DNA of 64,000 bases from a virus: positions 42,047 through 106,046 of the IMG/VR virus record IMGVR_UViG_3300046694_000315, one strand, 5' to 3'. Below, piece by piece: positions 14,120 through 63,800 of the stretch. Below the pieces are notes generated by a model. The model was not told the DNA's origin. It ran no database searches and saw only the letters and a program-made list of their open reading frames with translations. Position 1 is the stretch's first letter. Each line of letters opens with the position of its first letter. The position numbers and the translations under genes were made by a program.

Positions 14120-14518
14120 TTACTTGCTAGATGTTGGCGTTTCCGTGACCGTTTCCTTCGGGCACGGAATCTTGACCTGCACGGAATGCGTGTGCGCCAG
14201 CCCGTATACGGGGGCGTACGGCGTGGCCGAGGACGTAGGTGCGGGCACTGCGGGCGAAGGCCCGACCACGAGCGATACCTTGCACGTGCCCGGGGATTCC
14301 GGCTTCGTTGCTTCCGGTGTCGGCTCGGGCAGATACCTGGTCACCGTTGACACGGGCTGCGGCGAGGAATCCCCTTCGTATTCCGGAGAATCCGACTGGG
14401 AATTCTCGGTATGAAGCCCGGGGAAATCCGACTGGGCAACCGCTGAGATCCCGAATGCCGGTACGGCGAGAATTCCGATTGCCGCAAGGGCGACTTTGAT
14501 GCGCTGGATTCCGTTCAT
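14120..14518 (-). CDS. Secreted or membrane-anchored hypothetical protein
   Basis: MNGIQRIKVALAAIGILAVP AFGISAVAQ is a signal peptide or membrane anchor, followed by a low-complexity Pro/Ser/Thr/Glu region and a short C-terminal segment with HTHSVQVKIPCPKETVTET. Probably exported. The start overlaps the upstream stop as ATGA. It carries the first Leu-His-Thr motif (GGTATGAAG at 14408). Function unknown; a role at the cell envelope is an inference. Confidence 0.7.
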   Translation of the reverse strand: MNGIQRIKVALAAIGILAVPAFGISAVAQSDFPGLHTENSQSDSPEYEGDSSPQPVSTVTRYLPEPTPEATKPESPGTCKVSLVVGPSPAVPAPTSSATPYAPVYGLAHTHSVQVKIPCPKETVTETPTSSK

Positions 14519-14664
14519 ACCAGCACCGTACCGAAGCCCTCGCAGTGGACACAGTCGGCGCCGTCGCGGTCTTCACCGGACCCGTAGCACCTCTTGCAGT
14601 CGATCTCCTCTGCCGCGCCCTCGCCGGTTTCGGCGGGAGACACTGCATGCACGTGTGCGCTCAT
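14515..14664 (-). CDS. 49-residue zinc-finger protein
   Basis: A small gene encoding MSAHVHAVSPAETGEGAAEE then CKRCYGSGEDRDGADCVHCE GFG. The two CxxCxGxG-like knuckles resemble half of a DnaJ central zinc finger and are common in tiny phage proteins. The stop overlaps the ATG of the 14518 gene. A weak SD (AGGAAGG) lies rather far upstream, so coupling to the 14677 gene is possible. Confidence 0.7.
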   Translation of the reverse strand: MSAHVHAVSPAETGEGAAEEIDCKRCYGSGEDRDGADCVHCEGFGTVLV

Positions 14665-14676
14665 GAGAAGTACTAA

Positions 14677-16215
14677 CTAACCTTCCTGGTTGATGTAAGT
14701 TGGTACGTCGACGATTTCGGCGTCGATGAAACCGGTAGAGGCTTCGATCATCCGGTCCGCCGAGAGAGGCCTGTCGAGCGCTGTCATCTGTTCCCCGGCG
14801 TCCCGGCCGAAGATACGGCTGATCATACCGGCCCCGCCGCCATTCCCCTTAGCCTCCAGTTTCACGGAGAAGGAGTCCTGCTCCAGTTCCGTCTTCACCT
14901 TCACGAGTTTCTGGAGCCGGTCGATCTCGCCGGAGAGGTTCGGATCCGCGTAGCCACCGGTCATATCCTCGACCATCTTCATGAAGAGGACCCGCTGCGC
15001 CTGCATCTCGATGAGCGAGTTCTGGAGCGACTGCATCTGCTGCTTGCTCTTCACTTCGACCGGGATGTCGTACGCGCAGTTGGCATTCTGGTCGAAGGCC
15101 GGGCACTTCGAGGACAGGAAGCAGGACGAGCAGGCGCGCATGGACTGGCTGCGCACGGTCAGGAGGGGGATGTCCCGCTCCTTGTTCACGCCGTCCTCGG
15201 GGTCGGTGTAGACCTCCTTCTCCTGCACCAGGCCGATGACCGGCAAGTTGGTACGCGGGCGGTCTCTGCGGACGGCCGGAGTTGTCACCGGGTTGAGCGT
15301 TTTTCCGTCCTCCGTACCAACTTCGGTGCCCTGCATTTGAGAGAAACTCGAAAGTACCCCTCCGGCAGAAGTAGTAACTGCTTGGGCTTCCTGCGGCCGG
15401 TGCTGGTCGATCGAGGCCGCCAACTGCTGCCACGACCAGATGGTGAACCGCAGGACCTCGTCGTTCTCTCCGGCCTCGATACGGTCGGCGTCGAAGCCCG
15501 CTTCGGTGAACAGAGTGCGGTGCCTTTTCCGCGCCTGGTCCTTGTACTTCTTCGGGTAGCGCTTCAATTCCCGGCCGGTCCACACAATGGTGTCACCGTA
15601 CTGGGAAGGGGAAAGCCAGGACGTCGAGGCGACGCTGTCCCAGTTCACGGCAGCCATTTCCGCAGGCTTAGTCATGGCCACTCCGTGGAGTAGCGTGCCG
15701 TATTTCCGGGTGATCTCGTTGAGAACCGGGGTGAGATTCCGGCCGTCGAGATCCGTCTGCGTCACACCGACCCGCTTATACCTCTGGGCGAGTTTATCGA
15801 GTTCGTCGACTCCCCATTCCGAATGCCATATCGGAAGGAACTTGTCTTCCGGCAGGTCCTCGTAGAAGTCCTCTCGCCGGGCCTCGATCCATTCCCGTCC
15901 GAGAACGACAGCGTCGAACTCGGACACCATATGAAGGGAATCGATATTCTGCTGGACGAACGCTTCGTAATGCGCGGCGATGTCCTTCAGTTCGCCGATC
16001 GAGTACTTGTCGTCGTCGGCCTTGTTGACCGTGTAGGCGCCGGAGTCCAGGAACACCTTCTGGTTTTCGAGGTAGTTGTCCTCGATCAGCCAGGGGCGGG
16101 TGAACTTGGTCCGGCGCCGCAGGCCCATGTACGAGAGGGAGACGGTTTCGACGCCTTCCTCGGCCAGCATCTTGCGCCAGCCGGGAATCTCGGATCCGCC
16201 GAGGAAGAGGTGCAC
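14677..16215 (-). CDS. DpdA/queuine-TGT-like protein with Cys-rich C-terminus
   Basis: The N-terminal about 250 residues carry VFLDSGAYTVNK (compare DSGGF in tRNA-guanine transglycosylases and DSGAF in phage DpdA), LPIWHSEWGVDELDKLAQRY and LHGVAMTKPAEMAAVNWDSV with STSWLSPSQYG, a pattern I associate with the TIM-barrel TGT/DpdA family that inserts 7-deazaguanines into DNA. The C-terminal half has RACSSCFLSSKCPAFDQNAN CAYDIPVEV, four Cys that could bind zinc, and a helical tail. It carries a motif variant decoded Leu-His-Met at 15930. No queC/D/E/F genes were seen in the window. Confidence 0.6.
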   Translation of the reverse strand: MHLFLGGSEIPGWRKMLAEEGVETVSLSYMGLRRRTKFTRPWLIEDNYLENQKVFLDSGAYTVNKADDDKYSIGELKDIAAHYEAFVQQNIDSLHMVSEFDAVVLGREWIEARREDFYEDLPEDKFLPIWHSEWGVDELDKLAQRYKRVGVTQTDLDGRNLTPVLNEITRKYGTLLHGVAMTKPAEMAAVNWDSVASTSWLSPSQYGDTIVWTGRELKRYPKKYKDQARKRHRTLFTEAGFDADRIEAGENDEVLRFTIWSWQQLAASIDQHRPQEAQAVTTSAGGVLSSFSQMQGTEVGTEDGKTLNPVTTPAVRRDRPRTNLPVIGLVQEKEVYTDPEDGVNKERDIPLLTVRSQSMRACSSCFLSSKCPAFDQNANCAYDIPVEVKSKQQMQSLQNSLIEMQAQRVLFMKMVEDMTGGYADPNLSGEIDRLQKLVKVKTELEQDSFSVKLEAKGNGGGAGMISRIFGRDAGEQMTALDRPLSADRMIEASTGFIDAEIVDVPTYINQEG

Positions 16216-16241: not shown

Positions 16242-16925
16242 TTACTTCGGGGGCTGGACGGCGCTCTTGGGGAAGAGGCCGGGCTGGGTGACGCGGGGCT
16301 TCTTGGCGGCCGGAGCGCCTGCGGCGGGCTTCTGCCGGGGGCCCGGCGACGCGGCCATCCCGAACTGCTGCGGGGAGCGGACCTGGCTCGGGCCGAACAG
16401 TCCGGCCTGGACCACGCGCTGCGGCTTGGCGGCCGGTGGCGGCGTCTGCGGGGCCGACTGGACGGGGGTGCCAGAGGTGCTGGCGTGGGTGCCGAACGCG
16501 GAGTGGAAGTCGTCCCAGGCCCCGCCGGAGGGCTTGCTCTGCGCCTGGATGCCGTTCATCCGGGCGTTGAAGGTATGAAGGAGGTCGGAGGCCGCGCCGG
16601 AGTGCTGGGCATGCCAGGCGTCGAGGCTGGAGGAGTGGTCCTCGCGCACCCGCTGGATGTCGGCCTGGTTCTTGATGCCGTTGGCGATTCCCTCGCGGCT
16701 CATCACGCGAGCGTGCATGCTGCTGTCCTGGGCCGGGGCGCTCTGCTGGCCCTGTCCCTTGACGCGGATCTTGATGCGGGAGTTGGCGGGCTGCTGGCCG
16801 TTCTTGGCGTTCTCCAGGTCGCTGACGCGCTGCTCGACGCTGCGGCGCGAGCCGGGGAACTGGAGGGGCTGGAGGTAGCGGTCGCGGATCTGGGTCGCGA
16901 TGGAATGGAAGACGGAGCCACTCAT
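16242..16925 (-). CDS. Hypothetical protein with Pro/Ala/Gln-rich C-terminus
   Basis: The N-terminal half (MSGSVFHSIATQIRDRYLQP) is basic and helical; the C-terminal half is Ala/Pro/Gln-rich with two similar short segments, VVQAGLFGPSQVRSP and VTQPGLFPKSAVQPP, suggesting a peptide repeat that may bind a partner. The ATG overlaps the upstream stop (ATGA). It carries a Leu-His-Thr site (16572). A structural or scaffold role is only a guess. Confidence 0.65.
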   Translation of the reverse strand: MSGSVFHSIATQIRDRYLQPLQFPGSRRSVEQRVSDLENAKNGQQPANSRIKIRVKGQGQQSAPAQDSSMHARVMSREGIANGIKNQADIQRVREDHSSSLDAWHAQHSGAASDLLHTFNARMNGIQAQSKPSGGAWDDFHSAFGTHASTSGTPVQSAPQTPPPAAKPQRVVQAGLFGPSQVRSPQQFGMAASPGPRQKPAAGAPAAKKPRVTQPGLFPKSAVQPPK

Positions 16926-17718: not shown

Positions 17719-18579
17719 TCACCCGTGCCGGTGTTCGATCAGGCCCTCACGGTGGGCCTTCTCATGGGCGCGGACGGCCTTGCGCTGGTCGTGCTCCAGG
17801 AAGCGGGGACTCATCCCGTGGGCCTGGATCAGGTGCTCGTGCACGGCGTCGAGGTTGGTGTGGGTCTTGATCTTGGGTTCGACGGGGGCGGTCTTCTCGA
17901 ACTGGTCGAGGTTGAGGACGTGGGCCCCGACATGGGTGTCTCCCCGGCCGCGCGCTTCGGCGAGCCGGTGGTGCGCGTCGGCGACGTACGGTGTGCCGCC
18001 CTGGATGACCACCTTCACGTGCGGGTGGTCGGGGGCCAGCGGGCCGGTGATGTAGGAGTGTGAGCCGGTCTCGTACGAGGTCTGGCCGGTGTGCAGGACG
18101 GCGCTGGTGCTGATGCTCTGGAACTTGGCGTGCTTGTTCCAGAAGGCCTCGTTGCCGTGGCTCATCTGCGGGCCGTGCTTCTCGTACCACTTGTCGTCGA
18201 TCTTGGTGTCGACGACGTTGCCGTGCCCGTCGAGGTGCCCGAACTGCTGCGGGGAGTGCGGCGGGCCCATGACCATCTGCCCCTCGGACTGGGGGTAGTT
18301 GGTGCGCTCCTCGTCATGGATGAGCGTCTCGTCACGGGCGGCGCCGAGCGAGGTGACCTTGGTGAACATCCCGCCGCTGTGAGGCGTGGGATGCCCGATA
18401 TGAAGTGCGCCGGGCTTGGCCTGGAGATGCAGCGGCGTGTCCTTGGTCAGGTGGTAGGCCGCGCGGAGCGCGGTCTGCTTCTGGCCTTGGGCGGAGACCC
18501 TGCTGCCCAGGGGGACCGGGAGGGCGGTCTGCTCGAACTGTGGACCGGCGGTGTCCGGCTTACTGCGGGAAGGTGCCAT
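17719..18579 (-). CDS. ParB-like domain protein
   Basis: The C-terminal half contains HPHVKVVIQGGTPYVADAHH RLAEARGRGDTHVGAHVLNL, matching the ParB/sulfiredoxin fold signature (strand, D/A-x-HHR, A-A-x-x-x-G, strand). The N-terminal half is His/Thr/Gly-rich, with GQTSYETGSHSYITGP. Such proteins in phages are often morphogenesis-associated or nuclease-like. The ATG overlaps the upstream stop (TGATG). It carries a Leu-His-Ile motif variant at 18397. Confidence 0.55.
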   Translation of the reverse strand: MAPSRSKPDTAGPQFEQTALPVPLGSRVSAQGQKQTALRAAYHLTKDTPLHLQAKPGALHIGHPTPHSGGMFTKVTSLGAARDETLIHDEERTNYPQSEGQMVMGPPHSPQQFGHLDGHGNVVDTKIDDKWYEKHGPQMSHGNEAFWNKHAKFQSISTSAVLHTGQTSYETGSHSYITGPLAPDHPHVKVVIQGGTPYVADAHHRLAEARGRGDTHVGAHVLNLDQFEKTAPVEPKIKTHTNLDAVHEHLIQAHGMSPRFLEHDQRKAVRAHEKAHREGLIEHRHG

Positions 18580-19648: not shown

Positions 19649-20038
19649 TCAGAGTTTGAGAGAAGCGCGGAGTTGGGCCTCCTGGGCCTGCCGCTGCATC
19701 GCCTGTCCGACCATCATCATCTGCTGCTGGGTGCGCTGGGCCGTCTCCATGACGGTGAGGTCCTTCTGGACCACGGCGACGGCGCCGTAGATGTCGTCGG
19801 GGGTGGCTCCTCGCCGGGGGACGAACTTCTGGGTCAGGTCGCTGGTGGCGACGACTGCGCCGTCCAGGCCGACCGCGACGAGGAACGCCGTGGTGACCGG
19901 GGTGCCGATCTCGTCTTCGGCGGGCGGGTGCTCGTCCGCCATCTTGGCCAGGGCCTCACGCTGCTCGGGCGTGAGGTCGTCAGTATGAAGCGCGCTGCTG
20001 TCGCTGCTGGGGGTCTGGCCGAGGATCGGGATGCTCAT
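19649..20038 (-). CDS. Hypothetical protein, 129 aa
   Basis: MSIPILGQTPSSDSSALHTD carries the Leu-His-Thr site near its N-terminus (19982). A central GTPVTTAFLVAVGLDGAVVA TSDL looks like a beta hairpin, and the C-terminus is a long Gln-rich helix (TAQRTQQQMMMVGQAMQRQA). No family recognised. It ends at the terminator 19597-19631. Confidence 0.7.
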   Translation of the reverse strand: MSIPILGQTPSSDSSALHTDDLTPEQREALAKMADEHPPAEDEIGTPVTTAFLVAVGLDGAVVATSDLTQKFVPRRGATPDDIYGAVAVVQKDLTVMETAQRTQQQMMMVGQAMQRQAQEAQLRASLKL

Positions 20039-20566: not shown

Positions 20567-21172
20567 TCAGTACCAGTTAGTGGCCTGGGAGTGTGCCCAG
20601 GCGGTGCAGGGTGTCCCGTATACCGCCTCGATGTATCCGAGTCCCCATCGTATCTGGGTTATTGCATTGGTTTGCCAATCCGAACCGGCGGAAGCCATCT
20701 TCGAGGCCGGTAGTGCCTGGGGTATTCCGTAGGCGCCGGAGGAGGGGTTGGTGGCGGTGACGCGCCAGTTGGACTCCTTCTCCCACAGCAGGTCCAGGCA
20801 GGCGAACTGGGTGGCTCCGACCTTGGCGAGGGCGTAGGCCTTCGGGGAGGTCGTGGCGACGACGGTGTGCGTCGGCGTTGGGGACGCGCGGGGCGTCTTC
20901 GTCGGTTTTGGCTGGTGGGAGTGGGTGGCGCTGGCGGTCGGCTTGGGGGTCTTGGTGACCTTGGGGGTGGGCGCCGGAGCCGCCGAGGTATGAAGCGAGG
21001 GACGCGTCAGGGACCGGTTGGCGGTGTCCGGAGCTGCTCGGGTGACGGTCGGCGCTGCGGCGATGCCGCTGTAGTCGACGGGCTGGCCCTGGCCGGTGAT
21101 GGAGATGGCCGATACGACGGAAGCCGTAACGAGGATGGCGGACGCTGCTGCTGCTGCGACGCGGTAGCGCAT
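20567..21172 (-). CDS. Secreted lytic-transglycosylase-like protein
   Basis: MRYRVAAAAASAILVTASVV is a signal peptide or anchor, followed by about 80 residues of Pro/Thr/Ala/Lys linker and a C-terminal domain FACLDLLWEKESNWRVTATN PSSGAYGIPQALPASKM. The E-S-x-W ... G-A-Y-G-I-P-Q pattern matches the goose-lysozyme/SLT-like fold with its catalytic Glu. It would cleave peptidoglycan outside the membrane. The Leu-His-Thr site (20987) lies in the linker (RPSLHTSAAP). A GTG four codons upstream is an alternative start, but GTGAGG serves better as the SD. Confidence 0.75.
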   Translation of the reverse strand: MRYRVAAAAASAILVTASVVSAISITGQGQPVDYSGIAAAPTVTRAAPDTANRSLTRPSLHTSAAPAPTPKVTKTPKPTASATHSHQPKPTKTPRASPTPTHTVVATTSPKAYALAKVGATQFACLDLLWEKESNWRVTATNPSSGAYGIPQALPASKMASAGSDWQTNAITQIRWGLGYIEAVYGTPCTAWAHSQATNWY

Positions 21173-21264: not shown

Positions 21265-22131
21265 TCACGCCTTGACGGTGAACAGACCGCTGGCCTTGGC
21301 CAACTTCGTCAGCGATGCCAGGCCCGGAGCACCCTTGGCGTCGTCGCCCGTGTAGCCGCTCTTCCGGCGGAAGAGGTCGTAGCCGTCCTGCGTCTTGGTG
21401 CCCCAGGAGCCGTCCACCCACCGCGCGTCGAGGTAGCCCAGCGCCGACAGCGCCTTCTCGACGAGCAGCACGTCCGCCTTGTGGGTCGTGTGGCCGGTGG
21501 CCGCCGGGAGGTCCGCCTTGCGGGCCGCGACGACGTTGGAGACGTCCACGACCGGCTTCGCAGCGGGCTTCGGAGCCGGAGCCGGGGCGGCCGGAGCCGC
21601 CGGGGTATGAAGCGAAGGGTTCTGCGACTTCCACGCCGGGTCGGCCGACTCGATGCCGTCCGGGTATTCCGGGTAGCCATATCCGTAGACATGCGCGTCG
21701 GTCCGGACGTGGGTCTTGGCGTAAACGCCATCCCCCTCTGCCGAACCGTTTATGTTCGTATTGCCTTCTACGCTGAAGACGTGAGTCGCGTCGAATCCGA
21801 TAACGACCCCGGTGTGCTCACCTCCGCCCGGCCCGTAGAAGATTTGACTGCCGATCGCGGGGTACGCACTGAATCGCTTCCGGGCCTTGTACCAGGAAAC
21901 GCCGGTCGCGCACGAGGCGGTAACCGGGTAGGAGCCCTTCGGCAGGCCCGCCGTCTGGAAGGCCCACGCAGCGAATACCGCGCACCAGGCGCCTTCCGCG
22001 TCGTCGACCCACTCCAGGCCCGGGACCTTGTCGGCGTACTTCTCGTGGTTGTTCCAGTGGCCGTTGGAATAGCCCTCGTGGTATCCCACCTCGGCATTTA
22101 CGACCTTGGTGAGATTGTCGGTCAGAGACAT
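21265..22131 (-). CDS. Endolysin: CHAP amidase/peptidase with peptidoglycan-binding domain
   Basis: The N-terminal about 150 residues form a CHAP domain, with catalytic Cys in EGAWCAVFAAW (C50) and His in GGGEHTGVVIG (about 107). A Pro/Ala linker with NPSLHTPAAPAAP follows, and the C-terminus (VEKALSALGYLDARWVDGSW GTKTQDGYDLFRRKSGY) is a PG-binding-1-like repeat. It cleaves peptidoglycan cross-bridges at lysis. The linker holds the Leu-His-Thr site (21604), in almost the same context as in the neighbouring transglycosylase. No holin is adjacent. Confidence 0.88.
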   Translation of the reverse strand: MSLTDNLTKVVNAEVGYHEGYSNGHWNNHEKYADKVPGLEWVDDAEGAWCAVFAAWAFQTAGLPKGSYPVTASCATGVSWYKARKRFSAYPAIGSQIFYGPGGGEHTGVVIGFDATHVFSVEGNTNINGSAEGDGVYAKTHVRTDAHVYGYGYPEYPDGIESADPAWKSQNPSLHTPAAPAAPAPAPKPAAKPVVDVSNVVAARKADLPAATGHTTHKADVLLVEKALSALGYLDARWVDGSWGTKTQDGYDLFRRKSGYTGDDAKGAPGLASLTKLAKASGLFTVKA

Positions 22132-22836: not shown

Positions 22837-24095
22837 CAGAACAACTTCTGCTGGCCCGGGTGGACCTCGGTATGAAGTCCGTTGCCCTTGCCGTAGGTGT
22901 TCAGCGAGGAGTCGTGGTTGTCGCCTCGGCGGCGCTTCTCCTCCGACCACTGCGCGGACTGCATGTTGGTCAGGGAGTTGAGGCCACGCTCCTGCATCAC
23001 GTTGCGGGCGACGTGGTCGTGGAAGGCGTGGATGCCCTTGATGCCCATGTAGGCCTGCTGGCTGCCGGAACCCTTCTTGTCCTCCAGGTGCGGGGCGAAC
23101 GCGCCGCCACCGGAGTGGGTGTCGGACACCCAGAACTGCGAGGAGCCGTGGGGGTCGACCCACGAGTTGTGGTAGGCGCCGACCTTCTCACCGGCCGTCG
23201 GCTTCCACGCGTTCGACAACTGCTTGCCGTTGAGGACCTGGTTCGTCACGTCGATGGCGAGGGCGTGGTTACGCGGGTAGCCGTTGACCGGGTAGGCGCG
23301 GGTGTCGCCTTCCTTCTTCACCAGTTGCGTGAACTGCTTGCCCGACTTCGAGGTGACGGTCTTCTCGACCTTGTCCTCGCGCGGGACGTAGTAGTCCGGG
23401 TGGTAGTGGTAGTCGGCGCCGGTCTTCCCGGACTTCGCCCACTTGATCGCGTGGCTGGCCGCCTCGTCGTTGGGGTAGACCGCCTTGCCCGTCTCCTTGT
23501 CCGGCCGCACGAAGACGTTCTGCGGGGACGTGATGGCGTTCGCAGCGGCCTGGACGCCGAAGGGCACCCCGTTCTCCTTCGCGGACGTCTTCAGGCGCGC
23601 ACGAGGGGACAGGGAGCCGTCACGGGTGTGGTCCTGGGCCGGGCTGTAGAACGAGTCGTGGTGCCCACCCTCGTGGGCGTAGGCACGGTCGACCTGCGCG
23701 GCCAGCGCGCGGTGCGCGGACTCGGGGGTGACACCGAACTTGGCGGCCGACCGCAGCACGCGGGACTGCTCGGCGGGCGTGTGGTCCTCCCACCGACGGT
23801 TGACCGGCATCATGTCCTTGACCGGGTTCATGGTGTGCTGGCCGTGCCAGACATCAGATCCCTCCGGGCCCGCCAACTCCATCTGGCCGTGGAGGTTCGG
23901 AGCCTTGTCGGTGTTGCCCATCAGCCGGTACGACTGGCGGGGACTGGCACCGGCACCGGGCTTGTCCTGGATGGTCTGGAACCGCTCGGGGTTGGCGGCC
24001 TCGTAGGACTGCCGCTTGGCCGACGCGTCCTTGACGGTCTTGTTGTAGGTGCGGGTATCCGCAGCCTTCTGTGCGGGGGTCTTGCTCGCAGCCAT
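22836..24095 (-). CDS. Hypothetical protein, 419 aa
   Basis: A hydrophilic His-rich protein: AYAHEGGHHDSFYSPAQDHT about residue 145, a Tyr-rich centre (GADYHYHPDYYVPREDKVEK) and KGIHAFHDHVARNVMQERGL near the end. Its gene order with 24100 and 22546 suggests a conserved block. The Leu-His-Thr site lies 11 codons before the stop (22869). His-rich segments could bind metal; function not recognised. Confidence 0.7.
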   Translation of the reverse strand: MAASKTPAQKAADTRTYNKTVKDASAKRQSYEAANPERFQTIQDKPGAGASPRQSYRLMGNTDKAPNLHGQMELAGPEGSDVWHGQHTMNPVKDMMPVNRRWEDHTPAEQSRVLRSAAKFGVTPESAHRALAAQVDRAYAHEGGHHDSFYSPAQDHTRDGSLSPRARLKTSAKENGVPFGVQAAANAITSPQNVFVRPDKETGKAVYPNDEAASHAIKWAKSGKTGADYHYHPDYYVPREDKVEKTVTSKSGKQFTQLVKKEGDTRAYPVNGYPRNHALAIDVTNQVLNGKQLSNAWKPTAGEKVGAYHNSWVDPHGSSQFWVSDTHSGGGAFAPHLEDKKGSGSQQAYMGIKGIHAFHDHVARNVMQERGLNSLTNMQSAQWSEEKRRRGDNHDSSLNTYGKGNGLHTEVHPGQQKLF

Positions 24096-25782: not shown

Positions 25783-26190
25783 CTACTTCTCTGCGTACCA
25801 GGAACCTATTGCCTGTGCGGGTGGGGTTTCGAGGTACGACTTGGCCCGCTCGAAGAATGCGGGATCATCGCGGGCGTGGCCTAGGAGGTTGTTGCAGGGG
25901 CGGCATAGCAGTCCCCGGACAAGCAGGGTTTTGTGGTCGTGGTCGACCGAAAGGCGCCGGGTGGCTCCGGTGGCCCGTCGGCAGATCGCGCACTTCCCGC
26001 CCTGCGCCGCGTAAAGGGTGTCGTAGGTCCCGTCTCCGAGTCCGTACGTGGCCTGTACGCGCTTCTGGTGGGCGGCCGTGCTGCGGCGCTGCTTCTCTTC
26101 GCGCCAGTGCGTGGCGCACCGTGGGCCGGGGTTGGGCGCTGGGCGCTTGCTCCCCGGCTCGCAGTCCTTGCAGACCTTGGGGGTGGTCAC
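25783..26190 (-). CDS. HNH endonuclease (recombination endonuclease VII type)
   Basis: CAICRRATGATRRLSVDHDH KTLLVRGLLCRPCNNLLGHA R matches the endonuclease VII family: a Cys pair, D-H-D-H catalytic strand, and C-R-x-C-N-x-x-L-G. An additional N-terminal CKDCEPGSK and CATHW form a small zinc site. T4 gp49-like enzymes resolve branched DNA before packaging; phage relatives may also be homing or nicking enzymes. The GTG start overlaps the upstream stop (GTGA). Confidence 0.88.
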   Translation of the reverse strand: MTTPKVCKDCEPGSKRPAPNPGPRCATHWREEKQRRSTAAHQKRVQATYGLGDGTYDTLYAAQGGKCAICRRATGATRRLSVDHDHKTLLVRGLLCRPCNNLLGHARDDPAFFERAKSYLETPPAQAIGSWYAEK

Positions 26191-26789
26191 GCGAAGGCCA
26201 GGATGTCCCTGACCTTGGTATGAAGGTCTTCGAGGGTGCCGTCGTTGATCAGGCGGACGTCGAACCACTTGTCGGGCAGGGGCTTCTCGGACTTGTGGTC
26301 GTTGACCGCACCGACGCCGGGCCGCTCGATCTTGACGAGCATGCCGAGGCGGGAGTCGATGGCGTGGTGCTCGTTCTCGAACCGCAGGTCGGTGAAGACG
26401 TACTTCTTGTCCTTGTCCAGGCCCTTGAAGGCGGCGTCGACCCACACGTTCTGGTCGATCATCTCGCGGCCGACTTCGGTGCCGATGACCTGGAGCATCC
26501 GGCGGATCTCGGGGTAGGCGCGCTTGGCCTCGTCCCACCCGATGGTGTCCACGATGTCCTTCACGCGGATGTCCTGGCCGTCGGTGCCGAAGAGCACGAC
26601 GGGGTTGAGGACGTACAGGGCCTCGCGGAGTTTGTCGGCGAAGGCGACGCGGGTGTAGCCGTAGTCGGCGAGGATCTTGGCGACGGCGTCCTTGCCCGCG
26701 CCGGGGAAGCCGTGGAGGCCGATGAACTGCGGGAGCCAGGACTCGACGATGTCGTGGCCGTCGGTGGTGTTGGTGGTGGCGGTGCTCAC
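26187..26789 (-). CDS. Deoxynucleoside monophosphate kinase-like
   Basis: The protein of 200 residues has the P-loop GLHGFPGAGKDAVAKILADY (about 24-43), V-A-F-A-D-K-L-R-E and VFTDLRFENEHHAI, the pattern of phage dNMP kinases (T4 gp1-like), which phosphorylate dNMPs for DNA synthesis. With ThyX and NrdJ nearby it completes a nucleotide supply set. The Leu-His-Thr site lies 9 codons from the stop (26217). Confidence 0.8.
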   Translation of the reverse strand: MSTATTNTTDGHDIVESWLPQFIGLHGFPGAGKDAVAKILADYGYTRVAFADKLREALYVLNPVVLFGTDGQDIRVKDIVDTIGWDEAKRAYPEIRRMLQVIGTEVGREMIDQNVWVDAAFKGLDKDKKYVFTDLRFENEHHAIDSRLGMLVKIERPGVGAVNDHKSEKPLPDKWFDVRLINDGTLEDLHTKVRDILAFA

Positions 26790-28016: not shown

Positions 28017-28696
28017 TTGGCGGACACCTTGCTCTTGGGCGCTTCGTCGTTCTTGATCGTGGCCTTGAAGAAGGCTCCGGCTGCGTCGTGCCATACGACG
28101 ACACCCTCGGGGTCCTTGAAGCCGGGAGCGATGAAGGAGCCGTCCGACTCCAAGGTATGAAGCGCGATGTTCACGGCGTAGTTCAGGTCGTTGCCGTTGG
28201 CGACCAGGATGACCGGTACGACGGTGACCTCCGGCGGGGCGGGGACGGCCTTGGGGAAGGTCTCCAGGTACTTGTCGGTGACCTCGGCGTCGCGGATGTC
28301 GTACCAGCGGTTGACGTTGAAGAGGGCGAAGCGCCTGTCGTCGAGGCCGTAGCCGGACTGGATGCCCTTGCCGAACCACTCGCCGTAGTGCTTGCCCTCG
28401 CCGAGCGCGGTGAGTGCGTCGGCGTTGTCGTAGACCCACTTGGCGAAGCCGAAGTTGTCGGCTTCCAGGGTCAGCCAGCGGTTCCGGCTTCCGGCCCGGA
28501 CGAGGTAGGTGTTGCCGTCGCTGCCTCCGGCGAGGATGCCGGTGGGGTCGGTGGCCTGGAACAGGTCGGGCTCGTCGACCTTGGTGACCTCGATCAGGCC
28601 GTTGGTGCCGTTGATCTTCTCAGTGAGCACGACCTTGCGGTGCAGTCGCGGGATGGGCCGGAACTTCGGGTAGTCGCTGGACTTGAGGATGGTCAT
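28013..28696 (-). CDS. RNA ligase (Rnl2-like)
   Basis: The nucleotidyltransferase motif I is seen as VLTEKINGTNGLIEVTK (K27-x-x-G30), with later RAGSRNRW, a FGFAKWVYDN section, EGVVVWHD (motif IV) and FFKATIK (motif V). This arrangement matches ATP-dependent Rnl2-type RNA ligases, which repair nicked RNA such as cleaved tRNA. No polynucleotide kinase gene is next to it. The Leu-His-Thr site (28154) lies near motif IV. Confidence 0.85.
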   Translation of the reverse strand: MTILKSSDYPKFRPIPRLHRKVVLTEKINGTNGLIEVTKVDEPDLFQATDPTGILAGGSDGNTYLVRAGSRNRWLTLEADNFGFAKWVYDNADALTALGEGKHYGEWFGKGIQSGYGLDDRRFALFNVNRWYDIRDAEVTDKYLETFPKAVPAPPEVTVVPVILVANGNDLNYAVNIALHTLESDGSFIAPGFKDPEGVVVWHDAAGAFFKATIKNDEAPKSKVSAK

Positions 28697-47820: not shown

Positions 47821-47864
47821 TCGGCGACTCCGAGGAAGCGATAAGTATGAAGCGATATCCCCAT
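47817..47864 (-). CDS. Leader mini-ORF MGISLHTYRFLGVAE upstream of the initiator
   Basis: Fifteen codons with ATG at 47862-47864 and the stop TGA overlapping the GTG of the initiator gene (GTGA). Codons 5-7 are CTT CAT ACT, the dispersed motif (plus strand AGTATGAAG at 47844). A weak purine-rich GAGAGAG lies 8 bases upstream. It is the translated leader of the initiator gene. Confidence 0.65.
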   Translation of the reverse strand: MGISLHTYRFLGVAE

Positions 47865-47980: not shown

Positions 47981-49219
47981 TCACTCCGAGTCGAAGTCGA
48001 GGCCCTTCTCCTCGATCTCCGCCCGCGTCAACTGGACGACCTTCTGTCCGGCCGGGATCCGGCCACGGCCGCGACGGCTGTAGTTGCCCTCGTCGTCGAC
48101 CAGGTAGGCGAACGTCTTGGTCTCGTCACGCGGACGGCCACGGCGACGGCGCGGGGTCGACTCCTCTTCCTCCTGCTCCTCGGCGGCCGGAGCCTCCGAG
48201 GCCTTCTCCTGCTGGGCGGCGTCGCCCAGGGTATGAAGCGCCTTTCGGAGCAGTTCGGTCAGCGGGCGCTCGCGCACGTCGGCCTGGTTGATGACCGCGT
48301 TGCGCTCGTCCTCCAGTCGGAAGGCGTTGTAGGCACCCTCCAAAGCGGCGCGCACGAGGAGCAGGTCGATCTCCGTGTCCGGGACCGCCTTGGCGGCCTC
48401 CTGCTGCGCCTTGTGCTGCGCTCGGGCGACCTCCTGCTCCAGGCTCTCCTGGTTCTGGATGTCCTCCTCGACCGGGTCTGCCTCCGGCTCGGGCTCCGGC
48501 TGGGCCTTGCGGCGACCGCGACGCTTCGGCGCCTCCGGCTCGGGCTCCGGCTGCGGCTCCGGCTGCGCTTCCGGCTCGTCCTCCGTCAGCGGCTCCTCTT
48601 CCACCTCGACCGGCTCCGGCTCGGCACGGCGACCGCGACGGCGGCCACGCTTCGGCGCCTCCGGCTCGGGCTCCGGCTCGGGCTCGGGAGCGGCCTCGGC
48701 CTCGGGCTCGGGCTCGGGCTCGGGCTCGCTGGCGAAGGAGATGTCGTCGAGTCCGGCCGTGAGGTCCTTCGCCTTGATCCCGGCGGCCTCGGCCGCGTCC
48801 AGAAGGAGTTCGGCTTCCTCGCTGCCCTCGTCGCCCCACAGGAGGATGACGTGGGCGTCGCCGACGCTGTCGGCCTTCTTCAGCAGGTCGACGATCCCGG
48901 CGGTGACGTTGGCCGTGCGCACGACCTCCTCGGCGTCCTTGAGGATGGAGTCCACGGCCCGGCTCTTCTCGCCGTCGGTGACCGCGATGAACGGGATGTC
49001 CGCGTACTCCGACCACTCCAGCACGGCCTCCAGGCCGTCGGACAGGTGCTTCTTGGTGATCGGCAGGATGAGGGTGACTTCCCGCTCGGTGGGCTCGGGG
49101 AAGCCGTCGGCGTCGTCCTCGCCCAGGCCGACGAAGTCGTTCAGCAGAGCCTTGACGTTGTCGATGTCGGTGTCGGCGGAGCCAGCGAAGGCGAGGGCGA
49201 TGGGGTCGGTGCTGCTCAA
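47981..49219 (-). CDS. Acidic/AT-hook DNA-binding protein
   Basis: The first about 150 residues form an alpha/beta domain ([20 protein letters not shown] ... VILLWGDEG), then long EPEPEPEA repeats alternate with AT-hook-like patches: [26 protein letters not shown] and [11 protein letters not shown]. The layout suggests a nucleoid-type or chromatin-modulating protein. The start is taken as TTG (49217-49219) after GGAG. Promoter at 49269-49297. The Leu-His-Thr site (48230) is in the C-terminal third. Confidence 0.7.
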
Positions 49220-49628: not shown

Positions 49629-50156
49629 TCAGACCGCCGACGCGGTGAGGTCGATGGACTTCGACAAGGCGGCAGCCGGGCCCGGGACCTCGGCCACGTC
49701 CGCGACTGCCTGTGGCAGGGTGCGCCGCAGGACGGACTCCAGGGCCGTGACGATCTGCTGGACGGCCTCTGCGCTCAAGGCGTTGCTGCTGGCCGGGACG
49801 ACGGCGCTCTCCTCGACGTACTCCTCGACGGTCCCGGACGGGATATGAAGCCGGATCTCCGCCTCCGCGATCAGCGTGTTCTGGAGCCGGGCGAACCAGG
49901 AGTACTTCTTCAGCAGCGAGTGGTAGAAGGTCGTGCCGGACACCCACGCCAGGAACGCGGCGACGACGGCGGGCGCCCAGTAGAAGTGCTGGGGGTGCGC
50001 CTGGTAGACGGCCCAGAATCCGGTGGCAACCGCTAGGACGGCATGCGCCGCTCCCTTGACTGTGCTGTTGGTGGACGGCTTGGAGAACAGAGCGACCACG
50101 GCCGGTAGGCCCAGGCCGACGACGAGGGAGGACACGTCGGCGTAGTTGGTGAACAT
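49629..50156 (-). CDS. Holin-like membrane protein, 175 aa
   Basis: MFTNYADVSSLVVGLGLPAV VALF, KGAAHAVLAVATGFWAVYQA and FYWAPAVVAAFLAWVSGTTF are TM segments, followed by a long soluble tail. This is the size and topology of large actinophage holins. It lies at the end of the tail operon, the usual lysis position, though the endolysin is at 21.3 kb. It carries a Leu-His-Ile variant (49842). Confidence 0.6.
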   Translation of the reverse strand: MFTNYADVSSLVVGLGLPAVVALFSKPSTNSTVKGAAHAVLAVATGFWAVYQAHPQHFYWAPAVVAAFLAWVSGTTFYHSLLKKYSWFARLQNTLIAEAEIRLHIPSGTVEEYVEESAVVPASSNALSAEAVQQIVTALESVLRRTLPQAVADVAEVPGPAAALSKSIDLTASAV

Positions 50157-56125: not shown

Positions 56126-58591
56126 TCAACTTGCCATAACTATGTAGTCGACGCCGGTGGCCGTTGTATTCGTTCTGGTGAGCCAGATCGTAACTGAGTC
56201 CGTTGTCACGCCGGTACATCCGACGCCCGTCACCGACGTTCCGGGAACTGTGGTGGAAGGCGTCGCGATTGCTCTCGGACTACTGCCCGTAAGGCCGAGC
56301 CCCGTTACCGTCACCGACGTCGGAGTATTCGCGGCGCTGGGGGTGATCGTCACGCGGCCGGTAACGATATTCGCAGCGGCCAGGACACCGGATACCTGTA
56401 GCGCGTCAGCGCCAATTTCCGCCCCCGTGTAGGCGCCGTTGTAAGACAGGAGGATGTATGGGGTGTCTGCGGTGTCGTTTACGTTCGGCGGAGCGATAAA
56501 CATCGACCTGGAATCGGCTGAGCCGTCGACCGAGATGAGTCCGGGAGCGTCCGTGGCGGTGGCGCCGTAGAACAGCAACTCGGCGAAGTTCGCAGGGTTG
56601 TTCGAGTTCATCTCGACGCGGGCACCCGACGCGGCGCTTCGGACGGTTGCACCAGTGATGGTGGACGTACCGGTGATCGTGACACCGTTGATCGTCTTGC
56701 CATTGATGGCGTTCGCGTCGAGTTTGTCGGCGGTGATAGACCCGGCCACGACCAGCGCGTTGTCCACGGCCTTGCGCATCTTGGCGTTGGTGACGAGCCA
56801 GTACCCGGCCGCCGTCGTCGGTGTCGTCTGTGACGGGCCTACACCGAACGTCGCCAGGTACTTCCCGGCCGGGATCGTGATCTGGCCGCTGATCTTGATC
56901 CAGGTTGTTGCCGCCGACGGAGCGAGGCTTGCGGTAGCGGGCCAGGTGGTGTTGGCGCCTGCTGCGTCCGACGTCGCCAGGAAGAACCGCAGGCTGCTGT
57001 TGCAGGTGCTGGAGGCGGCCACCCACGCCTCGACGTAGTAGGTCTCCCCCGGCGACACCGGCATGGCGTTCAGCGTTCCGGCGCTGTGCTTCCACGTCAG
57101 GTCGGTGTTGAGGCTGGTCTGCGAGATGAGTTTCGCGACCCACGAGGCTGGGGCCCCTGCCGTCACGCTGGGGTCGGTGGAGGCCGTCCGGACGACGTTG
57201 GTGCCCCAGTTCCAGGCGCTGCTGTTCTGCGTGAACTGGGGGTCCAGGAGGATGTTCGACGTATCTCCGATGACCAGCTTGTCCGTGGTGATGGACCGGG
57301 CCCCGATGACGGATGCGCTGATGGTGCCGGTGGTGATCGAGCCGCCGTTGATCGTCGTGGTGGTCGGGATGGTGCCGTTGTTCAACTGGTTGGCCGGGAT
57401 GCTGACGCCCGAGCCGATGGAGCCGGTGACCGTGGTCGCCGAGGACGCGGAACCTGACGTCGTCGCGGAACCTGCCGTGGCTGCGGAGGAGACCTGCCCG
57501 GAGACGTTCGTGCCGGAGATGACGAGGTTGGTCGCGTCGATCTGTGACGCTGTCAGCCTGCCGACGGTGATCTTGGAGGCATCGATGGACGCGATGACGC
57601 CGGACTCAGCGGTGATCGTCCCGGCCGCCATCTGGTTGGCGGTGACCGAGTTGGCTGCGATGTCCCCGGTGCCTGCCTGGTGCGCCGTGCCGGAGTTCGC
57701 GGCCGACGGCGCGGAAGCGATGGCGACCTTGGAGTAGGCCACCAGCCGGTAGCTGTACGCGGAGGCGTAGTTCTGGACGGAGTCGTAGAGGAAGTCCGCG
57801 CCGGGCAGCGTGCCGACGACGACCGGGTTGGAGAAGGCCGGATCGGTGTCCCGCTGCACCTGCACGTGGGAGAAGATCGCAGGCATCGCGAAGCCGGAGA
57901 CGTCCTTGCCGTCCCAGGTGACGCGCAGGCCGCCGAGCACGCCGGTAACCCCCGGGGCGGAGGGCACCGGAGGTGGGGTCGAGGACGAGGCGCTGGTGAT
58001 GTGCGCGGACGCCCACAGGGAGACGTTGCTGGAGATGTCGACTGCCTGCACGCGGACCATGACGTCCACGCCGGTATGAAGCCCGTCGAGGACGACGAGG
58101 GTGTCCTGGGTGACCAGCCCGCCGGACCAGTTCGTGCCGTCGTAGGAGTACTGGAGGACGTAGTGGGCGAGGTCGGTGAGGTTGGTGCCGTCCTGGTTCT
58201 CCGTCGGCGCGGTCCAGCTCGCCTGCACGCGGGCCAGGGTGGCACCCTCGTTGGTGACGTACTGCACCGTGGTGAGGGTCAGCGCGGTCGGTTCCTTGGG
58301 CGGGAGAACGTCCAGTGTGTCCCCGGTCGGCAGACCGTCGACCGCGTCCTGGACGTCCTTGATGCCCAGCGGGGAGTAGACCGGCTTCGTGATGTCCCCG
58401 CCCGAGAACTGCACCCACAGGGTCTGGCCGACCGGAGGCACCGTGTTCGTCGGGGATGCCGGAACGGCCCACGCACTTTCCGCGCTTCCCAGGACCTGCG
58501 GAATCAGCAGGGTAACCCGCGCCTCATTCAGCGGGTCCTGGTTATTGGAGACACTTCCCCGGTATATGCCCAGCATCGGCTCAGCCGACAT
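56126..58591 (-). CDS. Baseplate spike/OB protein with FN3 and fibre domain, 821 aa
   Basis: The N-terminal GIYRGSVSNNQDPLNEARVT LLIPQVLGS resembles gp5/VgrG OB-fold entries (R-x-x-V-x-x-P-x-V-x-G). Two fibronectin III domains follow (VQASWTAPTENQDGT ... YSYDGTNW; GVTGVLGGLRVTWDG), then repeated A-x-x-I-x-A-x-x-I segments (collagen/beta-helix-like fibre) and a C-terminal beta sandwich. It probably forms the tail tip. The Leu-His-Thr site (58073) is in the first FN3. Confidence 0.78.
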   Translation of the reverse strand: MSAEPMLGIYRGSVSNNQDPLNEARVTLLIPQVLGSAESAWAVPASPTNTVPPVGQTLWVQFSGGDITKPVYSPLGIKDVQDAVDGLPTGDTLDVLPPKEPTALTLTTVQYVTNEGATLARVQASWTAPTENQDGTNLTDLAHYVLQYSYDGTNWSGGLVTQDTLVVLDGLHTGVDVMVRVQAVDISSNVSLWASAHITSASSSTPPPVPSAPGVTGVLGGLRVTWDGKDVSGFAMPAIFSHVQVQRDTDPAFSNPVVVGTLPGADFLYDSVQNYASAYSYRLVAYSKVAIASAPSAANSGTAHQAGTGDIAANSVTANQMAAGTITAESGVIASIDASKITVGRLTASQIDATNLVISGTNVSGQVSSAATAGSATTSGSASSATTVTGSIGSGVSIPANQLNNGTIPTTTTINGGSITTGTISASVIGARSITTDKLVIGDTSNILLDPQFTQNSSAWNWGTNVVRTASTDPSVTAGAPASWVAKLISQTSLNTDLTWKHSAGTLNAMPVSPGETYYVEAWVAASSTCNSSLRFFLATSDAAGANTTWPATASLAPSAATTWIKISGQITIPAGKYLATFGVGPSQTTPTTAAGYWLVTNAKMRKAVDNALVVAGSITADKLDANAINGKTINGVTITGTSTITGATVRSAASGARVEMNSNNPANFAELLFYGATATDAPGLISVDGSADSRSMFIAPPNVNDTADTPYILLSYNGAYTGAEIGADALQVSGVLAAANIVTGRVTITPSAANTPTSVTVTGLGLTGSSPRAIATPSTTVPGTSVTGVGCTGVTTDSVTIWLTRTNTTATGVDYIVMAS

Positions 58592-59994: not shown

Positions 59995-60794
59995 CGTCCG
60001 GCCTTTCCGCTCTTGGCCGCCTGCTCGGAGGCAGACAGCGGGTCGCCCCAGTTGCCTGCGCGAGGGCCGATGAAGCCGGGCTTGGCCTCGTACTTGTTGC
60101 CTCCCTGCGGCGTCGGCAGGAGCGTCACGGTGACCGTGACCTGCGCGCGAGAGGGGATCATCTCCTGGGTCCAGTGGGTGTACTGGAGGTCCAACTGCTG
60201 GATGACGCCGTAGTAGGACAGCGACGTGCCGATCACGACGTACACCGGCACGTAGGTCATGGGACCGGCCGGGCCGTTGGTGTAGGTGCCCTTCGAGAAC
60301 GCCTTCTTGTAGGCGTCCGCGTCGGAGCTGCTGTCGTCGGTGACCGGCATCGGGGTGGCGATACCGGTGATCTTGTAGAGGGCGAGGATGTCGTAGGCCA
60401 CGCCGAAGGAAGGCACCATCGTGGCCGCCTCCCCGTACAACTTCGAGGAGTCCCACAGTTCGTAGGTGCGGTCGAAGAGCAGGCTGAACGACAGCGTCTG
60501 CTGAAGTGGGAGCAGCGTCTGCCCGGCGGTGACGTCGTCCTTGTTCACCGCGTTCGGGTCGGACAGGACGTTGGTGTCGATGCCGTGGGAGATGCTGATC
60601 GTGCTCGGGTTGTAGAGGAAGTTGCAGCGCTGGCGGGCGCCGTTCACTCCCTTCTCCTGGATGATGAATCCCCGGGTCAACTTCTTTCCGCCCGACCCGG
60701 TAACCCAGTCGACTCCGCCCAGGTTCTGGGTGAACGGAATGCTGGTGATTCGCGGGTCGAAGGGACCGTTGTCGGTTATCTTGCTGGCGGCCAT
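59991..60794 (-). CDS. Contractile-injection tube/tail-tip protein, 267 aa
   Basis: RQRCNFLYNPSTISISHGID and QQTLSFSLLFDRTYELWDSS, then PVYVVIGTSLSYYGVIQQLD LQYTHWTQEMIPSRAQVTVT VTLLPTP resemble CIS-tube proteins that precede LysM proteins in contractile tails (F-N-P-x-S-x-S, F-L-x-D, V-x-x-V-x-V-x-L). The ATG overlaps the stop of the leader ORF 60794-60823 (TAATG). Confidence 0.7.
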   Translation of the reverse strand: MAASKITDNGPFDPRITSIPFTQNLGGVDWVTGSGGKKLTRGFIIQEKGVNGARQRCNFLYNPSTISISHGIDTNVLSDPNAVNKDDVTAGQTLLPLQQTLSFSLLFDRTYELWDSSKLYGEAATMVPSFGVAYDILALYKITGIATPMPVTDDSSSDADAYKKAFSKGTYTNGPAGPMTYVPVYVVIGTSLSYYGVIQQLDLQYTHWTQEMIPSRAQVTVTVTLLPTPQGGNKYEAKPGFIGPRAGNWGDPLSASEQAAKSGKAGR

Positions 60795-60823
60795 TACGCG
60801 ACCGCCCGAGTATGAAGTCGCAT
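60794..60823 (-). CDS. Leader mini-ORF MRLHTRAVA between tape measure and tube gene
   Basis: Nine codons: ATG at 60821-60823, stop TAA overlapping the ATG of the tube gene. It begins two bases after the stop of the tape measure gene and exactly fills the intergenic gap. Codons 3-5 are CTT CAT ACT. Like the recA leader it begins ATG CGA CTT CAT AC. Confidence 0.65.
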   Translation of the reverse strand: MRLHTRAVA

Positions 60824-60825
60824 TG

Positions 60826-63800
60826 TTAGTTACCTGCCGCGATGAGGTTGATTCGGTTGTCCTCGGCGATGGCCGTCATGATCTGCTGAGCAGCGTCACG
60901 GGCCGACTGGGAGTCCATGGCACCTTGCACCTTCACGGTGATCGCACCGGCATTGAAGTGCAGGGTGGCCGCGCCACCCTTGGCATGAAGCCCGCCGACG
61001 CCGTTGCTCAGTGGCGTGTTGCCGGACAGCGCGGCACGCACAGCCTCAGCCTGGTAGGCCGGGATGATCATCTCGCCCTTGTGGACGCGGGCCGTCTGGT
61101 CGACGTCGATGTTGGTCGAGCCGACCGCGTATCCCTTGTATGCACCGCCGTTGGCCATGGCCTTGATGCCCGGCACATTGTCCAGGCTGTGGTAGCGGGA
61201 TTCCGCGTAGCGCACGCCCGCGATGATGTTGTCGACCGGGTTCCAGATGTCCTTGTGACCCTTGAGCGAATACGCGTTGAACGTCGAGTCGATGGTCTGC
61301 ATGATGCCCTTGGACGGGTGGCCCGCCTTGGCATTGGAGTCGGTGCGGTTGATCGCCCGGGGGTTGCCGCTGGACTCGTGCATGATCATCGTGTTGACGA
61401 TGGACTCGTTGTGCTTGGTGTCCTGCTTGAGGATCCCGAGCGCGGACTTGATCCACTTGGCTACGTTGCCCTTCGGCATCGCCCCCGTGGGGACGTCGCT
61501 GGAGGAGTCGTCCGAGGCGGCGTCCTTGCTGGCCGTGCTGGAGCCGGTGCTGATCTGGGCCGTGGAGATTCCGGCCGCGATGGCATCGACTTCCTCGGTG
61601 GATCCGTACGCGCCGGTATCACCGCCGAAGCCCATGCTGGAAAGCCGGTTGGAGCCGGACCCGGCGGTGTCCTCGGTGTCGCTGCCGACGTCGCTCATGC
61701 TGCCGACGGATCCGAGGATCCGCACGGCGTTGGTGAACTCGCTCGGCTTGAAGGAGCGGACACGCACCACGGCACCCGTGTGCGGCGCCTCGATCAGCCT
61801 GCCGCCACCGATGCACATCACGACGTGGTGCGCGGGGTCACCGTTGAACATCAGGTCACCGGGGCGCACGTCGCTCATCTTGACCTTCTTACCGGCCCGC
61901 TGCTGCTGCGCGGCGGTGCGGGGCAGGGAGACACCGATCTGCCTGAAGGAGTACTGGAGCAAGCCGGAGCAGTCGAAGCCCTTCGGCGTGCTGCCGCCCC
62001 AGACGTACTTCACACCGAGGTACTTCATGGCAACCTTGATGACGGCCGCAGCAGTCTTGCCCGCGCCCGATGTTCCTGTGGCCTTCGCACCGGACGTCTT
62101 GCTGCCGGTTGCCGCAGCCGCGCCGCCAGCCGTGGCACCGCCGAAGAAGTTGCTGACGATGCCCACTCCCGCGCCGATCGTTCCGCCGACAGCGGCACCG
62201 ACAGCGGTACCGATGACGGGGACGACGGAGCCGACCGCAGCACCGGCGAGAGCGCCGGTACCGGCGTCCACCGCGACGTGGCCCCACTTGTTGCCCGTCC
62301 CGCCCTTCTTGCTGACCTTGTCGACGACCTTCGAGCCGAAGTGGTGGGTGAGGTAGGCACCAGCACCGTAGGCGCCAGCAGCCCCCACAGCGCCCGCACT
62401 CAGGTCCAACGCACCCGCAGCGCCTGCGACACCGGGTATACGCCCCATCAGGCCGCCAGCGCCTCCGCCGCTACCCATCAGACCGCTGCCGAGCCGCATG
62501 GCTCCACTGAGACCGCGCGCAGCGCCCCAGGCACCCACACCGGCACCGAGGCTGGAGCCGAGCACCGAACTGGCGCCTCCGACTGCGCCCATCGCCGTGG
62601 ACAGGCCGGTTGCCTTGAGGACGCCCTGGAGCGCGGTGGAGAATTGGTCCAGGTACTTCGTCGCCGTCTGGAGACCTGCGGTGAATCCGTCGTTCTCGTT
62701 GACGTCCTGGTTGCGCAGGGTTCCCGCGCGGGTCATCAGGGTGTTGGCGGTCGACCCACCGATGCCCAGCTTCCCGAGGGCGGACTGAGCGGAGTTCTTC
62801 TCCTCCTGCGTCTTGCCGTTGTCGCGCTTGTTGGCCAGGTTGACGTAGGTCTGTGCGGACGCGCCGGAGACCTGCGCGAGCATCATGCCCTTGAGTTCGC
62901 CCCGGACCAGTTCGAGGGTCTTGGGGTCCAAGGTCCGGGAGAGGGACTGCATGATGCCGGACTGGTCGTTGTCGAGCGTTCCGGCGATCTGCTCCTTGGT
63001 CTTCAGGTTCTTGAGGTTCGGCCACCGGGCGAGTGCCTGTTGGGCGATCTGTCGCGGGGACTGCTTCTGCCCGTTCTTGATCGTCGCGATGCCAATGGCC
63101 TGCATCCCGTAGTACGTGCCAGCCGTCCACGCGGCGGCCGTTCCCTGGGCACGCTGCGTCTCGGACATGCCCGGGTTCATGTAGCCCGAGGTGCCCTTGA
63201 CGTAGTTCCACTGCTGGTTGAAGGAGGATGATCCCGCCGACAGACCCGTACGGGTCATCGTGCCGTAGGCCGTCGCCGCGTCCTGGGTCGACTGGGCGGT
63301 GAAGTTGTTCTTGAAGCCCTGGTCTCGCAGGGTGTGCCAGGACGAGGAGGAGCCCTGTGCCGCCTGGTAGGCGGTCGTCTGCATGACGACCTGGTCGGGC
63401 AGCTTCTTCTGGCCCCACGCGACGACGCTGGACAGCGTGCTCTTGAGGCCGCCGTTGTTCGAGCGTCGGCCGCCGTTGTTGGCTGCACCGCCACCCAGGC
63501 GGGGGGTGTTGCCGCCGCTGTTGCCGCTGTTGTTGCCGCCCTGGCCGCCGTTGTTGGCCGCGCCGCCACCCTGGTTGCCGTTGGTGGAGAAGCGCGCACC
63601 GCCCCCGTTGCCGGTGGGCGAGCCCGTACCGCCCTGACCGCCGTTGGTGCGGCCGTGAGCGTAGTTGCTGGTGCCGTTCCAGACGTCACCCAGCGCAAGG
63701 CCGAGACCCCGGGAGCGGGACATCTGCCCGACTCCGGTGTTTACACCCTTGAGGCCCTTGTTCAAGTCGTTGATGGTGCGCGTAAGGGCAGAGATCGCGT

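Follow-up and report, generated by a model that had tools for sequence, protein, structure and literature searches.

Frame-locked codon-plus-hairpin elements dispersed through a Streptomyces-type phage genome: a possible ribosome-pausing signal

The motif and its host genes

The DNA considered here is a 64,000-nt stretch (the window), positions 42047-106046 of the 106,046-bp IMG/VR virus record IMGVR_UViG_3300046694_000315, which belongs to a large, myovirus-type and Streptomyces-type phage. The nearest isolates include the Streptomyces phages BRock, Alone3 and GiJojo, whose DNA polymerases are about 52% identical to that of the record. Our subject is a short motif, CTT CAT A, dispersed through the genes of this phage and often followed by a hairpin. 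In the window, TATGAAG is found 30 times on the plus strand, and CTTCATA not once on that strand. One copy, at position 4864 (CTTCATAAC), is intergenic and off-consensus and was excluded from the count; the remaining 29 all read CTT CAT A.. on the minus strand, which bears nearly all the genes, and are in a gene or in a mini-ORF (a very short open reading frame). The 9-mer GGTATGAAG is present 21 times, against 0.3 expected. An earlier note on the window had given these counts, had put the chance expectation of the 9-mer below one and had seen no copy in the opposite orientation, and in the window all of this holds. The pattern is real and goes beyond its figure of about 27 host genes and mini-ORFs, with about forty in the record: CTTCATA occurs 43 times on the minus strand, or 42 times if the off-consensus copy is set aside, and once on the plus strand, and CTTCATAY 42 times on the gene-rich strand. 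The base before the motif is mostly a purine, and the third codon is AYC, AYT or ACG.

As the earlier note had also remarked, the hosts are unrelated proteins: DNA polymerase, RecA, NrdJ, DnaB, primase, a DnaC-like loader, RNA ligase, a deoxynucleotide monophosphate (dNMP) kinase, a MerR-like protein and a baseplate protein among them. Coordinates are those of the window throughout, and every element listed, here and below, is on the minus strand. Elements lie in a 512-aa gene at aa 94 (CTTCATATG; 15900..15936), a 227-aa gene at aa 116 (16544..16580), a 286-aa gene at aa 59 (CTTCATATC; 18369..18405), a 129-aa gene at aa 17 (19954..19990), a 201-aa gene at aa 60 (20959..20995), a 288-aa gene at aa 174 (21576..21612) and, close to the C-terminus, a 419-aa gene at aa 407 (22841..22877). 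Further on they are found in RNA ligase at aa 179 (28126..28162), the NrdJ-type reductase at aa 196 (34423..34459), a 65-aa gene at aa 8 (42862..42898), an 81-aa gene at aa 70 (CTTCATATC again; 45822..45858), the DnaC-like loader at aa 26 (46603..46639), a 412-aa gene at aa 328 (48202..48238), a 175-aa gene at aa 103 (also CTTCATATC; 49814..49850) and a baseplate-V-like protein at aa 171 (58045..58081). The replication and nucleotide-metabolism region has the highest density of sites and the structural genes have few; a region of small genes, at roughly 38-56 kb in the record, is free of them. Within the dense core the spacing is more even than random (P 0.008).

Reading frame and orientation

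Frame and strand were counted in 16 related contigs. Within called genes, 423 of 427 copies are in the sense orientation and in frame 0, that is, read as CTT CAT; the exceptions are one sense copy in frame 2, where the gene call is doubtful, and three antisense copies. The equal use of the three frames that would have spoken against the earlier note is not what is seen. Another 62 copies lie outside called genes, and 36 of these are mini-ORFs of 6-24 codons, each of which provides a start codon. Examples are ATG AAG ACC ATC CGG CTT CAT ACC TAG and, with AAT for CAT, GTG GTT CGG CTT AAT ACC TAA. In the window, a 10-codon mini-ORF encoding MRLHTYGGPC (ATG CGA CTT CAT ACC TAC GGG GGC CCC TGT TGA; element at 32536..32572) stands immediately upstream of recA, a 15-codon one (MGISLHTYRFLGVAE) carries the element at 47816..47852, and a 9-codon one encoding MRLHTRAVA (60781..60817) precedes a 267-aa tube-like gene. 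At 14380..14416, CTTCATACC and its downstream hairpin lie in a frame missed by the gene caller; this site is conserved in the other genomes that cover it.

Does the orientation belong to the DNA strand or to the message? The single plus-strand copy of the record lies in frame and close to the N-terminus of a gene on that strand. The genuine opposite-strand copies of other genomes are likewise in frame within plus-strand genes, including lone plus-strand genes, so that orientation tracks the sense of the message and not the DNA strand. A replication-strand, packaging or primase signal is rejected on this ground. A search for an antisense small RNA carrying the complementary motif found none, the sole opposite copy being that in the plus-strand gene.

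Frame 0 is used in all 66 non-homologous clusters of sites. One might think that such a frame lock is a by-product of codon usage. Codon usage, however, would favor frame +1 (Phe-Ile-Pro; expectation 0.143) over frame 0 (0.025), and opportunities to create the motif by silent changes exist in all three frames (4/6/3 in the outgroup genome G016, 7/13/20 in BRock), with only frame 0 used. The lock is therefore not explained by usage.

H and N forms among relatives

Relatives were taken from contigs in IMG/VR. At their common orthologous sites they split into an H group, with CTTCATAC, and an N group, with CTTAATAC, the difference being a C-to-A change. The switched sites include codon 14 of the polymerase (37876..37912, where the outgroup has LEE), the RecA C-terminus, NrdJ, the MerR-like gene and the mini-ORF before recA. 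Among 89 orthologous clusters, a count that includes a few chance members such as one low-quality antisense match, 35 are shared and show the coordinated switch, 33 are H-only and 21 are N-only.

The sites that are not shared are informative about what is selected. At H-only sites the N phages often retain the residues through other codons (CTGCACACC, CAGCACACC). At primase aa 203 (43244..43280) they have CTGCACACC, so that LHT is retained and the motif is absent; at DnaB-like helicase aa 85 (45089..45125) they have QHT; at aa 50 of the gene for a 125-aa protein discussed below (40320..40356) they have QHT through CAGCACACC; and at NrdJ aa 477 (33580..33616) they have LHQ, again lacking the motif. 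Where N phages must keep His, CTGCAC is used and the motif is lost, LHT then being CTG CAC ACC. At N-only sites the H phages show CTGAACACC or something similar. Because residues are retained with different codons, the nucleotides, whose conservation the earlier note had pointed out, are what is selected, and not the peptide; where the residues already suit the motif, silent changes give rise to a site. The motif peptide itself varies with the group (LHT, LNT or VHT). The suggestion that the peptide matters is accordingly not borne out. The earlier note had named relatives that keep LHT by other codons and lack the motif as an outcome against its interpretation; such relatives exist, and they refute the peptide branch but not the branch in which the signal is read by the ribosome.

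In gene trees, H and N phages are intermixed for the polymerase and cleanly apart for NrdJ, yet every contig is uniformly H or N, save for one RecA site in L029/L030, so that the sites are kept in step with something in the genome. A third clade has the form [C/G]TTCATAC. The outgroup G016 (polymerase identity 67%) has it nine times, always sense and in frame 0, and H-type sites are present in G024 (62%), so that the H form is likely ancestral. At two elements of the window the outgroup states are LHA, in the dNMP kinase at aa 189 of 200 (26189..26225), and, in the G016 ortholog of a 270-aa gene (aa 50; 38661..38697), GTTCATACC. Sites are absent from the isolates examined, BRock, Alone3 and GiJojo. 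In G022 (L149-L153) there is an in-frame codon pair CTT-CTA(-G), 47 times against 2.4 expected, with CTTCTAG in frame 0 27 times; having no hairpin, it is left out of the element count. G023 (L161-L164) has GTT-CAT seven times and CTT-CAT five times, against 0.4 and 0.3 expected, mostly lacking the A-Y third codon or a hairpin, and these pairs are possibly a decayed or precursor state.

The polarity of the switch also bears on the frame lock. CTTAATA places TAA in one alternative frame and TTA-ATA in the other, so that N phages have frame 0 alone open. As a general cause of the lock the stop codon is rejected, because G016, G024 and the decay pattern, in which N sites keep LHT or QHT, indicate that H came first, and H-type opportunities in the other frames go unused.

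Two rival explanations may be considered at this point. One is that the sites are transcriptional stoperators, asymmetric DNA sites at which a lysogenic repressor blocks RNA polymerase, with H and N as immunity groups. The Cluster A mycobacteriophages, such as L5 and Bxb1, have dozens of short, dispersed, asymmetric sites of this kind in one orientation to transcription, and the consensus differs between related phage groups (PMC3029335). The elements here are likewise numerous (30-45 sites), asymmetric and oriented with transcription, they change specificity in a coordinated manner, and the phage has a tyrosine integrase and an XRE regulator. Stoperators, however, are 13-bp DNA sites, mostly between genes and indifferent to frame, for which a frame lock, fixed hairpins or mini-ORFs are not known; here the genic copies are nearly all in frame 0 and the intergenic ones are mostly mini-ORFs. 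The stoperator repressor is known, whereas no protein here tracks the site variants cleanly, the XRE-DUF5753 regulator included: it does not follow H/N, the copy of an N phage being 93% identical to the H copy. We regard this explanation as improbable.

The other is that the middle codon suits the tRNAs of the phage (a class-II tRNA-His in H, tRNA-Asn in all) when host tRNAs are under attack. tRNA-His(GUG) is found in four H genomes and in no N genome, and the phage has the repair genes for Pnkp, RNA ligase and RlaP. But the H genomes G011 and G021 have no tRNA-His, and the fixed CUU, the A-Y and the hairpin are left unaccounted for, so that we give this explanation hardly any credence. The tRNA is of some interest in itself: the gene at L002:8973-9058 (orthologs in L047, L058 and L091) specifies an 86-nt molecule with His anticodon GUG, G-1:C73, a class-II body and a long variable arm, and is confined to H-type genomes, two of which lack it. 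The RNA-repair set is complete, with Pnkp phosphatase/kinase, a T4-Rnl1-like ligase, a second RNA ligase and RlaP beside five tRNA genes (L001-L002, record 1-40000, and the window), a set fitting defence against host tRNA nucleases.

The downstream hairpin and a possible ribosome pause

Folding was assessed in a 32-nt segment beginning 9 nt past the motif start. Its folding energy is -11.3 kcal/mol for H (n=220) and -11.8 kcal/mol for N sites (n=171), against about -7 for neighbouring segments. Stem starts peak at index 11, counted from the C of CTT, and in 43% of H and 51% of N sites a perfect stem of 5 bp or longer begins there. With kinship removed by taking one representative of each of the 66 clusters, such stems occur at index 11 in 36%, against 3% of controls, and the mean energy is -11.2 against -6.4 to -7.7. 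In this set the unpaired probability is 0.72-0.88 across the CAT A bases and then drops from 0.50 at index 10 to 0.22 at index 11. The element of the MerR-like gene (aa 35; 39403..39439) is a clear case, with a 7-bp perfect hairpin at +11. Neither stem nor loop sequence is conserved from site to site, and in a 114-aa Holliday-junction-resolvase-like gene (aa 98; 30905..30941) the H and N hairpins differ in sequence; between orthologs, stem pairs are kept in 78%, against 61% in chance hairpins. The hairpin frequently lies past or across a stop codon, as in some mini-ORFs and at the RecA C-terminus (aa 387 of 392; 31349..31385), where the stop codon is within it. It follows that the hairpin need not be translated, whereas the codons CTT CAT must be.

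What, then, reads these sites? Binding of tRNA in the A site is blocked by a stem-loop that lies 11-12 nt 3' of the first nucleotide in the P site (PMC7282821). With CTT as the P-site codon the stem would lie at the reported blocking distance, which gives a first natural reason for the frame lock. On balance we think it somewhat more likely than not that the element is a ribosome-pausing signal, by which a CAU or AAU codon is shown to a factor specific to the lineage. Each copy would be an mRNA element of unpaired CUU-CAU (H) or CUU-AAU (N), A-Y, and a stem-loop at 11 nt. With CUU in the P site, the stem would sit at the mRNA entry channel and hinder tRNA binding, and the stalled ribosome would leave the CAU or AAU codon open in the A site. 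Fixed codons and a one-letter switch would need a reader, and we infer a factor, varying with the lineage, that can reach the A site and might cut the mRNA there or prolong the arrest. With some 40 spaced sites, a single factor could control the phage mRNAs. The purpose might be the timing of expression through mRNA turnover. A second possibility is silencing or immunity in the lysogenic state, which would make the elements translational equivalents of stoperators; given the integrase-type gene and the XRE regulator, the lysogenic role is plausible, stoperators too being many weak sites that are oriented with the message and form specificity groups. That the whole amounts to a genome-wide translational control code, in which one factor reads the A-site codon of hairpin-paused ribosomes at about 40 in-frame elements and a codon change yields specificity groups, possibly immunity groups, is an idea we put forward tentatively.

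The earlier note's view that the signal is read on the translating ribosome thus gains support from the frame lock in the 66 clusters, the mini-ORFs, the gene-sense orientation and the hairpin distance. Its interpretation as a whole stands in part: the role of the peptide falls away, and the hairpin and the one-letter switch had been missed.

Several points weigh against a pause read by a factor. In the cited study (PMC7282821) inhibition by stem-loops was largely independent of codon identity, and a separate reason is then required for the fixed codons. Covariation is weak, double stem changes being kept at 0.55 against 0.45 in controls, and a clear hairpin is absent at about a third of sites. 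A residue-by-residue H/N association found no phage protein that cleanly separates the groups, and the 125-aa protein considered below, which has no clean set of H/N residues, may owe its presence pattern to phylogeny only.

A protein that binds the motif and hairpin on nascent mRNA, like a nut (boxA-boxB) system or an RNA-level repressor, and affects transcription or decay would make the frame incidental. Sites of this kind typically show what is seen here: a fixed motif-hairpin distance, an unpaired motif, sense orientation and a one-letter switch of specificity. The nut sites of phage lambda likewise have an unpaired motif and then a hairpin in the sense RNA; they are few, lie outside translated frames and are not known to have a frame lock. 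Binding of this sort leaves unexplained why frame 0 is used in 66 of 66 non-homologous clusters and why start codons precede intergenic copies; nor did an Rfam covariance-model search of the window give any match at gathering score. We judge it rather unlikely.

A further thought is recoding, in which the codon pair and hairpin drive +1 or -1 frameshifting or hopping to give truncated or alternative proteins. The codons and spacing fit the layout of a -1 frameshift signal, and the stem start at index 11 resembles that of the stimulatory stem-loops of dnaX and HIV, which are placed 5-9 nt to the 3' side of the heptamer, or 11-12 nt when counted from the P-site codon, and pause the ribosome (PMC7282821). 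Those signals, however, occur one per gene beside a slippery heptamer X XXY YYZ, whereas CTT CAT A and CTT AAT A are not slippery, number about 40 copies per genome and have a lineage-specific codon. Slippage of tRNA-Leu by +1 would not work in N phages (UUA), no pattern is seen in the downstream lengths of the other frames, and copies are found even in 6-codon mini-ORFs. Recoding is in our view very improbable.

For the factor supposed by a ribosome pause, the tentative candidate is a 125-aa protein encoded at 40126..40503 on the minus strand, with a putative BECR fold (RelE/colicin E5-like). Its model has a pLDDT of 74.6, with the core above 90, and a helix-helix-sheet topology that fits BECR; the best fold matches, which are weak, are to the RNases CdiA-CT (E 0.012) and colicin E5 (E 0.14), and there is no Pfam match. 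The protein is present in all motif-bearing clades, whereas BRock, G025, G026 and the prophage loci that were tested gave no match. Given the want of a clean H/N residue set, it is a lead rather than a finding. RelE-type enzymes cleave A-site codons (PMC11980606), and a BECR-fold nuclease of the RelE/ParE kind would act on the A-site codon of a paused ribosome; known RelE-type enzymes read about one codon, unlike the 8-mer and hairpin here. Together with T4 RegB, the RelE/ParE A-site mRNA nucleases are among the closest known systems. Colicin E5 cleaves tRNA-Tyr, tRNA-His, tRNA-Asn and tRNA-Asp at the anticodon, and the coincidence with CAU/AAU is suggestive, no more.

Other candidates were rejected: the Holliday-junction-resolvase-like 30888-31232 and 45377-45820, which had seemed H/N-specific but of which the H contigs L029 and L037 bear N-like versions; the XRE-DUF5753 regulator, on the evidence given above; a plus-strand 99-aa gene adjoining the tRNAs, which resembles a membrane protein; the class-II tRNA-His, missing from G011 and G021; and an N-only 116-aa gene that the N genome G020 lacks.

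Searches of the literature brought up no account of frame-locked codon and hairpin elements like these. We know of no system with dozens of them across a viral genome, nor of one in which a codon changes at all such elements in step. If a ribosome pause is the correct reading, a single factor would govern an entire genome by way of the elongating ribosome, and a pause or cut should occur with CUU in the P site and CAU or AAU in the A site. The H and N groups offer a ready specificity switch for locating the factor, and the question touches on the reasons for which phages carry genes for tRNAs, RNA-repair enzymes and RelE-like proteins.

Some features of genome composition may be added. AGCT is nearly absent (0-4 against 117-343 expected) from G022, G023, G024 (L159-L160) and G016 (L081-L083), and in the genome of the window it occurs 118 times against 282 expected; codon pairs such as GAA-CTG and AAG-TTG stand in for GAG-CTG and AAG-CTG. 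This looks like escape from a restriction system. G022 also has 18 tRNAs and a transfer-messenger RNA (tmRNA; L152, G022:76915-77282) with predicted tag GNVEKVDFLSGSRDLVLA. Finally, within window 20000-44000, similarity to known phages at the DNA level is confined to the ThyX-type thymidylate synthase region (window 27312-28016), which is about 75% identical to small Streptomyces phages.

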